From the NCBI GenBank assembly GCA_028698305.1, contig JAQVDN010000005.1, positions 1-64,000 on the forward strand: a stretch of DNA of 64,000 bases, in the 5' to 3' direction. The DNA comes from Candidatus Altimarinota bacterium. GTDB lineage: Bacteria; Patescibacteriota; Gracilibacteria; BD1-5; UBA6164. A program made the position numbers and the translations under genes. How positions within the stretch are numbered: the first letter of the stretch is position 1; the number at the start of each line of letters is the position of its first letter. This document shows positions 10,940 through 15,966 of this stretch, piece by piece. Under the pieces are notes generated by a model, which made no database searches, was not told where the DNA came from, and saw nothing but the letters and a program-made list of their open reading frames with translations.

Positions 10940-11761
10940 TTAAAAAGGTGATTTTATATTTTTGATATTACTATTCATAACTTTTGTATAAATTTGTGTA
11001 GTTTTGATACTAGAATGTCAAAGCAAATCTTGAATATATCTAATATCAGTTCAATTTTCAAGTAAATGTGTAGCAAAACTATGGCGAAGAGAATGAAAAG
11101 TTGCTTCTTTTTTAATTCAAGATTTTTTTAGTGCTTCGCTAAATATTTTTTGAAGTGTCCTTGTTGTTAATTTTCATCCTCTTTCAGATTCTATGAGTAA
11201 CTCATTCCCAGATTTTAACTGACTTAATTTGAATATGTCCTTTTTAAGACTTTCTGAAAAAATAGTTATCCTATCTTTTTCTCACTTTCATCACTTGATG
11301 TGTAATGTTAAATTTTCTAAATCAAAATCTCAAACTCTAAGATTAATAACATCACTTACTCTAAGTCAAGCACTATAAGCTAGAGTTATAATGAATTTAT
11401 GTTTTTCATTTTTAATATTTTCTATAATGGATTTTATCTCATTTTTTGTCAAAACTATCGGTAATTTTTTGGCTTCGCGAGAGAATTTTATATCCAAATC
11501 TTGAGATATTTTTAAAACTTCCTTATAGAAAAATTTAATAGATTCTTTATAAAGGTTTATAGTTTTGGGGGCTTTCTTTTTTGATTGTAAATCTAGAAAA
11601 AAATCGATAATTTCATCTCTTCTAATATTTTCAGGATTTTTATCTATTTTTTCTAGAAAAAATTTAATACAAGTTCAATATGCTTTTATAGTCCTTTGCG
11701 AATAATTTCTGTATTTAAGTTCTCTTTCAAGTTTTAAAAGATATTCTTGATTATTTTGCAT
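10940..11761 (-). CDS. Tyrosine recombinase, XerC/XerD type
   Basis: 273 residues. The N-terminal SAM-like core-binding domain (YSQRTIKAYGTCIKFFLEKI) is followed by the catalytic domain with the Arg of LAYSAGLRVSDVINL, the Lys of IKGGKGEKDR, HSLRHSFATHLLENG, LLGHSSIKTTQIY with the nucleophilic tyrosine near residue 256, and an end KSPF. All RKHRH-Y residues are visible. It lacks the 16-20 residue insertion before HxLRH that marks integron integrases (IntI), so by sequence it is Xer-like. Yet it sits directly beside, and is transcribed away from, an array of palindromic elements and cassettes, the arrangement of an integron. It could serve chromosome dimer resolution, cassette movement, or both. 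Confidence 0.93.
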
Positions 11762-11858
11762 TATAGTTATAATAAAAAGTAATAATTATTCTCTGTAAAA
11801 TATTTCGCATAATAATCTATTTTGGAATAAAAGCAAATATAAGTTCAGATAGAGAGTA
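11762..11858. other. Spacer between recombinase and first repeat element
   Basis: About 97 bp of AT-rich sequence in the position where an integron would carry intI promoter and attI. It must hold the promoter of the recombinase (minus). No clear inverted core sites were seen here. Confidence 0.4.
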
Positions 11859-12107
11859 GTTAGCACGAAATCGCTTCGCTCTCTCCGGAGGCTCAGTTTT
11901 GTTTCGTTTCACTACACAAAACTTTCACCCTCATCGAGTTTCGTGCTAATGGTCCGCAACATACCGTTGCTGTCATCCAAAGTCTGCTTTTCGCTATCGC
12001 TTCAGCGACTTCGTCTAACAGCAACTATCCAAAATATTTTCCTTCAAAAATCGGTTGCATTCGCAACCTTTTTTCGTAAAATACTTCGGATTAGTTGCGG
12101 ACCATTA
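11859..12107. repeat. Palindromic repeat element, copy 1
   Basis: One of four 248-250 bp near-identical elements. Each starts GTTAGCACGAAA and ends TTGCGGACCATTA. It folds as two adjacent imperfect palindromes: TTAGCACGAAA paired with TTTCGTGCTAA (11860-11870/11939-11949), and ATGGTCCGCAAC paired with GTTGCGGACCAT (about 11949-11960/12094-12105). Inner hairpins include CTCCGGAG, GTTGCTG with CAGCAAC, and GGTTGCATTCGCAACC. It is far richer in G+C than its surroundings. An apparent short ORF inside is not shared in frame context with a start signal and is rejected. Confidence 0.9.
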
Positions 12108-12271
12108 TGTGTAATCATTTTTTAAACAATTTAATGATTTGCAGAGATTTTTAAAATAAGGAATGAAAATTTAATTTTTTTCAAAAGTTAATAGGGGGGT
12201 AAAAGGTATTTTCTTCACTTCGTTCCGAAAATGAATAATTTTATAAAACTTTAATTTTTAATTTTACAATT

Positions 12272-12883
12272 ATGAATAATCAAGAAATTTTGGACAAAAT
12301 TAGTAATGCCACAGAAGACCTTACTAACTTGTTGCCAAATTTAGAAGATTTAGATCAAAATAAATCAAGAACTATAATTAAAAGACAAGTTGCTGCTTTT
12401 GAAGGGAATTTTGTAGTTTGGTTATCATCTATACTTATTACGGCAAAAGCTAATAAAACTAAAGAAGAAACTCTTAAAAATTTATCAGAAGAATTAGAAG
12501 GAAATCATGCATGATTATTAAGAAGTTTCGCGAAATCAGGTAATGCTTTGCCTGATAAAAATGATTTTGATTATTTAGAAAACGAAATTTCTATGATTAG
12601 AGAATTAGTTTCCGAAATGTCTGGATTAAAAAACTTAGTTCTATTAACTGTATTAGAAGATACTGCTCCAAATTGCATGGCCATTTTTCAAAAAGCAGCA
12701 AAACTTATTAATGCCGATGATACAAGATATGCTGATATGCATTATGAACTTGATGTTGAACATAGTCAGGATTTTAAAGATTCCTTAATTAAGGAAATTC
12801 AGTATTATGATAATCCGGAACCTCTTATTGATGATGCGATTAATAAGTCTTTAGGATTATTAAAAAAGATTTGGACTTTGTAA
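12272..12883 (+). CDS. Cassette gene 1: heme-oxygenase-like diiron/iron-containing redox protein
   Basis: 203 residues when one in-frame TGA (12512-12514) is read as Gly. The all-helical sequence has FEGNFVVW, NLSEELEGNH (residues about 70-79) and HYELDVEHSQDF (about 156-167), a spacing and E...ExxH...HxExDxEH pattern like the heme-oxygenase-like diiron oxidases (PqqC/CADD/DUF3865-type superfamily). Substrate unknown. The remaining glycines use GGN codons, unlike neighbouring housekeeping genes where TGA dominates, which suggests recent transfer from a standard-code organism with one TGA acquired or tolerated since. It is flanked by copies of the palindromic element. Confidence 0.65.
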
Positions 12884-12889
12884 TAAGGT

Positions 12890-12941
12890 GTTTCTATTTT
12901 TTAGAATTCACCCCCAGCCCCTCTTCTAAAAAAATAGAAAC
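12890..12941. terminator. Long perfect hairpin after cassette gene 1
   Basis: Arms GTTTCTATTTTTTAGAA (12890-12906) and TTCTAAAAAAATAGAAAC (12924-12941) around a C-rich loop (CACCCCCAGCCCC). It starts six bases after the stop codon. It may be a terminator or part of the cassette's recombination structure. Confidence 0.5.
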
Positions 12942-13176
12942 GAAAAAAATTAAATTTTCTTTTAAAGATAAAAAAATCTCTCTGCAAAAGAATAATAAGG
13001 ATAAAAAAATGACTTCTTCGCTTCGCTACGACTCCGTTGCACTCTCGCTTCGTTCCTCGCTCGGGACACATAACAGCTTCTATGAGGTTCTCTTCGTTGC
13101 TCTCGCTCTCCCAAATTTACAAAAATTACAATTTGATTTTAAAGGATATTTTTGTAAACTTCAGATAGACTTAAAC
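12942..13176. other. Noncoding cassette tail rich in CTTCG motifs
   Basis: GC-richer stretch with repeated CGCTTCG/TCGCTCG words (13011-13110), including AACAGCTTCTATGAGG at about 13070, a left arm also found in the next two cassettes but here without its matching right arm. No credible gene seen; the open frame through it spans repeat DNA. Confidence 0.5.
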
Positions 13177-13424
13177 GTTAGCACGAAATCGCTTCGCTCT
13201 CTCCGGAGGCTCAATTTTGTTTCGTTTCACTACACAAAATTTTCACCACCATCGAGTTTCGTGCTAATGGTCCGCAACATACCGTTGTTGTCATCCAAAG
13301 TCTGCTTTCGCTATCGCTTCAGCGACTTCGTCTAACAACAACTATCCAAAATATTTTCCTTCAAAAATTGGTTGCATTAGCAACCTTTTTTCGTAAAATA
13401 CTTCGGATTAGTTGCGGACCATTA
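13177..13424. repeat. Palindromic repeat element, copy 2
   Basis: Same start, end and internal palindromes as copy 1. Here the inner stem is GTTGTTG with CAACAAC instead of GTTGCTG with CAGCAAC, a paired change that suggests the stem matters. Confidence 0.9.
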
Positions 13425-14877: not shown

Positions 14878-14948
14878 AATAATTGGGAGAAGAAATTGGA
14901 TTTATGAAAGTTACCAAGTGTAGATAATCTAACTATTAGATAATTTTT

Positions 14949-14977
14949 TAGCCAGCTACTCGCTGGCTTTTTCTTTT
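14949..14977 (+). terminator. Intrinsic terminator, cassette 2 copy B
   Basis: Same AGCCAGC/GCTGGCT hairpin and T run as in copy A. Confidence 0.85.
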
Positions 14978-15134
14978 CCCCCTAAAAAAGCTCATTATCA
15001 CTCGCAAAAAAAGTTTTTGGTTTATACAAGAAATCAGCTATAATACTGAAAATCAACAAAAACAAAAAGTAGACGTAAAGGGTCGTTGCACTTAATTTTT
15101 CTTCCATTACATTACAGAAAAAATCACCCTCGCT

Positions 15135-15214
15135 TAACAGCTTCTATGAGGTTCGCTCGTTGCTCTTCGCTCTCCCATATTTTACTCATACTTCGCAAAA
15201 CATCTCATAGAAGC
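15135..15214. repeat. attC-like imperfect palindrome at cassette end (copy B)
   Basis: Arms GCTTCTATGAG (15140-15150) and CTCATAGAAGC (15204-15214), preceded by GCTTAAC, which fits the attC R'' consensus RYYYAAC, and followed by GTTAGCA. The loop differs slightly from copy A while the arms are kept. Confidence 0.5.
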
Positions 15215-15218
15215 AAAC

Positions 15219-15466
15219 GTTAGCACGAAATCGCTTCGCTCTCTCCGGAGGCTCAATTTTGTTTCGTTTCACTACACAAAATTTTCACCACCATCGAGTT
15301 TCGTGCTAATGGTCCGCAACATACCGTTGTTGTCATCCAAAGTCTGCTTTCGCTATCGCTTCAGCGACTTCGTCTAACAGCAACTATCCAAAATATTTTC
15401 CTTCAAAAATCGGTTGCATTCGCAACCTTTTTTCGTAAAATACTTCGGATTAGTTGAGGACCGTTA
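15219..15466. repeat. Palindromic repeat element, copy 4
   Basis: Fourth copy, ending TTGAGGACCGTTA rather than TTGCGGACCATTA. Internal sequence otherwise follows the others. Confidence 0.9.
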
Positions 15467-15471
15467 TATTC

Positions 15472-15966
15472 AATTTTGCATTTAAGACCAGAAAGAAATA
15501 TTTAATTACTTTTTTCAAATATGAGAGAAAATAAAATTACAGTCATTATTAATAAGCCGATTGATGAAATTTTTGAGTTTACAACGAATCCACAAAATAC
15601 TCACTTATGGATTCCTTCCATTTCAGAAGAAATTGCTGATGAATATCCTCCAAAAATAAATACGGAGTATAGAAATCGTGGAAATAACACTGATTGGAAT
15701 AAATACAAAGTTGTAGATTTTGAAAAAAACAAAGTATTTATTTTATTTAATTTAGAGGATAAATATTTTGTAAAATATTCTTATCGCAAATTAGATGATA
15801 ATAAAACTGAAATGGAATACTTTGAATGGATGATTGAAGGAGAATTAAGTAGCCCATTTACAGAGGATATTTTTGGGAATTTGAAAAAAGTAATGGAAGG
15901 ATAATTTTATTGGCTTAAAATGGACTTTCTTCGGTCGATTATTTGAATAGTTTTAAATGCAAAATT
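15472..15966. repeat. Inverted repeat bracketing cassette gene 4
   Basis: A 14-bp perfect pair, AATTTTGCATTTAA (15472-15485) and TTAAATGCAAAATT (15953-15966), flanks the SRPBCC gene, with weaker pairing continuing inward (GACCAGAAAG against CTTTCTTCGGTC). This may mark the edges of an inserted cassette. Confidence 0.6.
15521..15904 (+). CDS. Cassette gene 4: SRPBCC/START-like ligand-binding protein
   Basis: 127 residues, MRENKITVIINKPIDEIFEF at the start and an end with YFEWMIEGELSSPF. The opening strand followed by PIDEIFEFTTNPQNTHLW, the alternating beta strands and the C-terminal helix match the SRPBCC (polyketide cyclase/dehydrase, START-like) fold that forms a hydrophobic cavity. Ligand unknown. 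It contains no TGA codon at all; its glycines are GGA and GGG. Together with its place in the cassette array this points to recent acquisition from a standard-code bacterium. Confidence 0.75.
   Translation: MRENKITVIINKPIDEIFEFTTNPQNTHLWIPSISEEIADEYPPKINTEYRNRGNNTDWNKYKVVDFEKNKVFILFNLEDKYFVKYSYRKLDDNKTEMEYFEWMIEGELSSPFTEDIFGNLKKVMEG

Follow-up and report, generated by a model that had tools for sequence, protein, structure and literature searches.

An integron-like cassette platform with an integrase that lacks the IntI helix-I2 region in bacteria of the candidate phyla radiation

The DNA analysed here (the window) comprises 64 kb of contig JAQVDN010000005.1 from Candidatus Altimarinota bacterium (assembly GCA_028698305.1), a tiny uncultured member of the candidate phyla radiation (CPR) which uses genetic code 25 and whose available genome amounts to 1.29 Mb (88% complete). 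In the window four repeats of 245-250 bp alternate with four open reading frames (ORFs) on the 5' side of a divergently transcribed tyrosine recombinase (Table 1). The integrase, the attI-like site next to it and the array of cassettes constitute an integron-like platform. A previous inspection of the letters alone (hereafter the sequence-only reading) had described the divergent recombinase and the four repeats between ORFs, and its coordinates are confirmed, as are the copy identities (96-98% relative to copy 2). The cassette junctions fall exactly at GTTAGCAC, as had also been claimed: the tandem units 13177-14196 and 14197-15218 are 97.9% identical and bounded by G↓TTAGC (the arrow marks the junction), and outside the array units similarity collapses (42% immediately before 13177, 28% immediately after 15466). 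Rather than being scattered genome-wide, the 248 bp element occurs in the window array only, with no further copy elsewhere in the 1.29 Mb, 88% complete genome.

Table 1. Features of the integron-like platform and its chromosomal flanks (positions in the window).
Feature	Position	Strand	Remarks
RNA methyltransferase-like gene	9967..10923	-	Flanks the platform on the left; retained in relatives
Integron-like tyrosine recombinase	10940..11761	-	273 aa in code 25; lacks the IntI helix-I2 region
attI-like site	11803..11861	+	Crossover inferred between G11859 and T11860
Gene-less cassette copy 1	11859..12107	+	Hairpin 1, then decayed 160 nt attC 11947-12107 with AAT/ATT replacing AAC/GTT
ORF cassette 1	12105..13176	+	ORF 12272-12883, 203 aa, Haem_oxygenas_2-like; 1 TGA vs 5 GGN Gly codons
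attC of ORF cassette 1	13065..13186	+	Covariance model E 2.6e-6; hybrid site
Gene-less cassette copy 2	13177..13424	+	
ORF cassette 2	13422..14196	+	ORF 13600-13857, 85 aa repeat protein; 9 TGA, 3 GGN (native code-25 codons)
attC of ORF cassette 2	14107..14206	+	R''-A-GCTTCTATGAG...CTCATAGAAGC-AAAC-GTT
Gene-less cassette copy 3	14197..14444	+	
ORF cassette 3	14442..15218	+	Duplicate of ORF cassette 2; ORF 14620-14877
attC of ORF cassette 3	15129..15228	+	
Gene-less cassette copy 4	15219..15466	+	
ORF cassette 4	15464..15966	+	ORF 15521-15904, 127 aa, no TGA codon; attC missing; array end
tRNA-like gene with insert in anticodon region	16063..16163	+	Rfam RF00005; right chromosomal flank common to congeners

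The site adjacent to the integrase is conserved well beyond this genome. Eleven related integrases from genera and families outside that of the window each adjoin an attI-like sequence whose end falls exactly at GTT, and mostly different first cassettes come after it, so the cassette order fixed in all relatives that the sequence-only reading had named as contrary evidence was not encountered. A pattern search placed an attI-like site in the stretch from the start of the integrase to the first cassette at 76 of 84 loci, 46 of which show the complete box pattern. The order of integrase, attI and array, with first cassettes that mostly differ, recurs in about 80 CPR loci.

The attC sites proper are the palindromic ends of the ORF cassettes, about 90-120 nt long, which lie left of each GTTAGCAC junction and show the R''/L''/L'/R' geometry; their R''/R' boxes (YAAC/GTTR) resemble those of classical attCs. 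The attC-like palindromes noticed earlier at cassette ends were borne out by a geometric scan, which found 63 sites in cassette orientation over 302 kb of array sides. The opposite strand yielded 8, the side of the integrases away from the arrays 12 (in 549 kb), and shuffled sequence 1. Scored with a covariance model, the attCs of cassettes 2 and 3 rank near the top of those in the order, and that of cassette 1 is weakly paired because it takes L'' and L' from two attC types. An Rfam scan of the window returned RNase P and one tRNA only, and no attC-like family.

The attC of a classical integron cassette is complete only when the cassette is circular, and its R'' half accordingly corresponds to the left end of the cassette that carries it. 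The same relation holds here: in 27 of 51 usable loci the initial bases of the first cassette (at least 9 nt) recur within 3 kb as their reverse complement, R'', compared with 3.4% when the cassette starts of other loci are used. The control consists of such mis-paired boundaries; an opposite-strand control gave some long matches, since repeated cassettes repeat their own start. Among the sites located by R'' alone, 21 of 27 also carry an L''/L' stem and a correctly spaced GTT, a combination seen at 3.1% of all AACs. In 38 aligned attCs full Watson-Crick exchanges occur at eight stem positions, together with an unpaired A that never varies on one side, a spacer of 3-4 bases on the other, and a bulge of 2 nt. 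Stem covariation reaches 0.50, against at most 0.09 when the alignment is slid, a score biased upwards because the sites were chosen for pairing, a bias from which the R''-based test is free. Predicted stability favours the bottom strand in 28 of the 38 attCs (Wilcoxon p 5e-5).

The 248 bp repeat had been taken by the sequence-only reading for an oversized attC, and this part of the description had to be given up. It is a gene-less cassette that carries its own decayed attC: on the left it begins as cassettes do (G↓TTAGCAC), and the hairpin inside it forms an attC-like pair in which AAC/GTT is intact in a relative (G068, GTGCTAAC...GTTGCGGACGTTA) and mutated to AAT/ATT in three of the four window copies. 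As this attC is decayed, the gene-less element and the ORF that follows may move as one unit; the tandem duplication, whose edges lie at G↓TTAGC and which skips the mutated inner junction, likewise suggests that the two moved together. Each gene-less cassette also contains a terminator-like hairpin (12053-12068, 13370-13385, 14390-14405 and 15412-15427), formed by GGTTGCATTCGCAACC or its ATTAGC variant followed by a run of T, which is a candidate transcription terminator upstream of each ORF. Such hairpins are enriched (16 versus 2.1 in shuffles), and promoter-like matches in the gene-less cassette are no commoner than in shuffles; the ORFs cannot on this count be called promoter-poor, as they had been. 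The product of the last ORF (15521-15904) is Polyketide_cyc2/SRPBCC-like with a score below the Pfam cut-off.

The window integrase matches Pfam families PF00589 and PF13495, its ORF is intact, and the catalytic R, K, HxxR, H and Y are invariant in 35 relatives. The closest solved relative by sequence is IntI4 (2a3v), with an alignment gap over chain residues 173-242. Fold comparison gave IntI4 a Z score of 21.9 (rmsd 5.4 over 257) and the archaeal XerA 5hxy a Z score of 20.8; with a tolerance of about 1 in the tool, the two count as equal. The earlier observation that the recombinase lacks the IntI-specific insertion was upheld, since 60 residues separate KDR from HxLRH in 78 of 82 CPR enzymes, compared with 101-103 in four IntIs. 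The CPR integrases thus lack a region of about 42 residues that holds helix I2 (patch III), and no I2-like helix is present in the predicted structure of the window integrase (pLDDT 87).

Profile scores place the window enzyme below the cut-off of TIGR02249 (214 versus 265 bits, split over two stretches), above that of NF040815, the XerA/integron integrase family (236 versus 220 bits), and well below those of XerC (174 versus 335) and XerD (176 versus 330). In a phylogenetic tree that took in four IntIs and two XerAs, and in which the deepest branch order is weak, the CPR enzymes form one clade (100/99) and the IntIs another (100/100), both apart from the sampled Xers (100/98). The recombinase is nearer to IntI than to XerC/XerD. 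The core of the sequence-only reading, an integron-like cassette system of the CPR with a Xer-type recombinase devoid of the IntI-specific insertion, withstood the tests made. The CPR enzyme is not a canonical IntI, and its platform would work like an integron. No canonical IntI (TIGR02249 above cut-off) was detected in 77 genomes of the order or in 380 of the phylum. A single TIGR02249 match in the phylum comes near full length (L160, in G218); it has a longer loop, scores below the cut-off and was not seen at an attI.

The distribution of the platform was explored in these 380 phylum (Patescibacteria) genomes with an integrase profile and with an attC covariance model built from the scanned sites. 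The attC model matches 66 genomes and the integrase profile 51, always with one integrase per genome. Both co-occur in 41 genomes, that is, attC matches are found in 41 of 51 genomes with the integrase and in 25 of 329 without it (Fisher p 3e-28). Among the matches listed, all attCs within 20 kb of an integrase (66 of 66) lie on its 5' side in divergent arrangement, and one attC on an integrase contig is 180 kb away. Many relative loci stop 100-300 bp past the integrase start, as expected if the repeat array breaks assembly. A scan of named genomes gave 80 close integrase relatives, nearly all from CPR bacteria. Two were binned as other taxa, Actinomycetota (L086, 251-1057) and Pacearchaeota (L141, 2954-3763), by misbinning or transfer. 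No earlier description of CPR integrons was found in the literature searched, which excluded preprints and covered subscription papers sparsely.

In the genus of the window the platform occupies one place on the chromosome, from the RNA methyltransferase-like gene, which we take from its sequence to be of the RsmB/NOP2 type, to the interrupted tRNA, beyond which lie DedA-like and SecF-like genes. G051, G052 and G054 have one or both of these flanks in common with the window, and G052 has both. Homologues of the left flanking gene stand beside the integrase or its remnant with 75-76% identity in these three genomes and 58% in G066, which belongs to another genus. The tRNA-like gene, detected by Rfam and missed by ARAGORN, is kept at the array's far end in G051, G052 and G054. 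The integrase is only a remnant in G052 (L029, about 11365-11570) and is broken in G066 (L077, 9400-9789); both genomes keep the array.

The comparison of relatives for cassette shuffling, which had been suggested as a check, pointed to mobile cassettes. Congeners hold different cassettes at the same chromosomal locus, and two large cassettes are shared between different genera. One of 2.8 kb is found in G051 and G033 with 98.4% identity, compared with 73% for the DNA of their integrases; it lies at attI in G033 and behind an attC in G051, and its similarity begins exactly at G↓TT, the right edge being cut by a contig end. The other, of 6.6 kb, is 97.7% identical in G031 and G076. The shared cassettes encode a type IIG restriction-modification enzyme (L069, 2567-4912) and a type II methyltransferase-endonuclease set. 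The latter (L041, 547-6590) is accompanied by an ATPase-like protein of the candidate defence family PDC-S06.

Codon usage suggests that several cassette genes came from donors with the standard code. In the window chromosome TGA accounts for 79% of glycine codons, and for no less than 44% in any of 43 long ORFs, and several cassette ORFs in code-25 hosts are nearly free of TGA-glycine (0/13, 0/20, 0/11, 1/32), for which capture from standard-code donors would be the simplest explanation. Other cassette ORFs look native, and small ones individually contain too few glycines to judge. One cassette gene of the APH phosphotransferase family in a code-25 host (L074, 10354-11286) has one TGA codon.

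Taken as a whole, the locus very probably represents a sedentary platform on the chromosome with the workings of an integron. In the mechanism proposed, the CPR integrase would insert cassettes, as circles, into the neighbouring attI at G↓TT, and recombination between the attCs at cassette ends would excise or duplicate them. Each cassette begins with TTRNNNN and ends in an attC whose R'' is this beginning in reverse complement, and the complete attC would therefore exist only in the circle. The attC would be recognised as a folded single strand; its L'' and L' are complementary across variable loops, the 2-nt bulge is fixed and one-sided, and the spacers measure 1 versus 4 nt. In the window genome, where the platform may be currently active, a gene-less cassette precedes every ORF and the pair would move as a unit.

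Several observations weigh against this interpretation. The I2 region is reported to be necessary for cassette capture (PMC7790495, PMC9668308) and the CPR integrase lacks it; the published role of I2 argues that such an enzyme should not handle attC as IntI does, and its chemistry may therefore differ. In addition, 25 genomes have attC matches with no detected integrase and 10 show the reverse, and the integrases of G052 and G066 are damaged, as described above. The window copy itself may be ageing, since it has a mismatched hybrid attC, mutated gene-less attCs and a last cassette without attC.

The most likely alternative is a fossil, a platform that once captured cassettes in the window genome and no longer does so. 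The decayed gene-less attCs, the hybrid attC at 13065, the missing terminal attC and the relatives with lost or broken integrases would fit it. It is nevertheless rather unlikely given the intact integrase ORF with all catalytic residues, the high-scoring attCs of cassettes 2 and 3, and the 97.9% identical duplication, which suggests recent movement. Far less plausible is that the cassettes are mobilised in trans by canonical IntIs of other organisms, the neighbouring recombinase being merely an Xer-like resolvase. The classical look of the R''/R' boxes and the orphan arrays in 25 of the 380 genomes could be so explained, but no TIGR02249 match above cut-off was detected in the order and phylum samples, attI is conserved directly before the CPR recombinase (platforms having been sought nowhere else), and attC follows the CPR integrase both across genomes and in its divergent, 5'-sided placement. 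That the repeat is a palindromic or MITE-like element which reached its places between genes by chance, through transposition or homologous recombination, is scarcely credible: its long, highly identical copies, internal hairpins and single tandem duplication would suit such an element, yet its four copies all lie inside the array, G↓TT marks their edges throughout, R'' corresponds to the left end of its own cassette, and the attC family persists in other genomes that lack the 248 bp element.

Integron integrases are held in two reports to have acquired cassette capture with helix I2, which docks extrahelical attC bases (PMC7790495, PMC4792948). Whether the CPR enzymes represent a separate, phylum-wide class of integron integrase, capturing folded attCs without I2 by descent from a pre-I2 stage or as a second solution, is in our estimation evenly balanced. 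The I2 claim becomes directly testable with a natural clade that combines attI, attC and mobile cassettes in the absence of I2, and this clade may preserve an earlier stage. More than one tenth of the sampled phylum genomes carry the platform, which would be a dedicated gene-capture system for CPR bacteria with their reduced genomes; two of its cassettes bring restriction-modification genes common to different genera, and others seem to have passed between hosts of the standard code and of code 25. Surveys that demand a canonical IntI would miss these platforms or file them as orphan arrays.

Among known systems, the IntI chromosomal integrons of Vibrio and Archaea (PMC9668308) share with the CPR platform the divergent tyrosine recombinase, the adjacent attI with G↓TT crossover, the imperfectly palindromic R''/L''/L'/R' attCs in a directional array, gene-less cassettes, orphan arrays and cassette exchange between genomes. 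The CPR platform differs in its integrase, which forms its own clade without the I2/patch III region, in its distinct attC family and in its CPR hosts, here with code 25. Archaeal XerA/NF040815 enzymes resemble the CPR integrase in their length without the insert, in the family cut-off that it passes and in the second structural match (5hxy), whereas the CPR enzymes group with IntI in the tree and are linked to attI and cassette arrays. XerCD phage integration of the CTX type and Xer-flanked resistance modules, as portrayed in PMC4792948 and PMC7399989, likewise combine an I2-less Xer-like enzyme with a folded or Xer-type site, and as described there they lack an integrase and attI of their own and R''-matched arrays. 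The gene-less promoter cassettes of the Vibrio superintegron (PMC11014356) are similar in being ORF-free repeated cassettes scattered among ORF cassettes; in the CPR array, by contrast, one copy stands before every ORF and carries a terminator-like hairpin.

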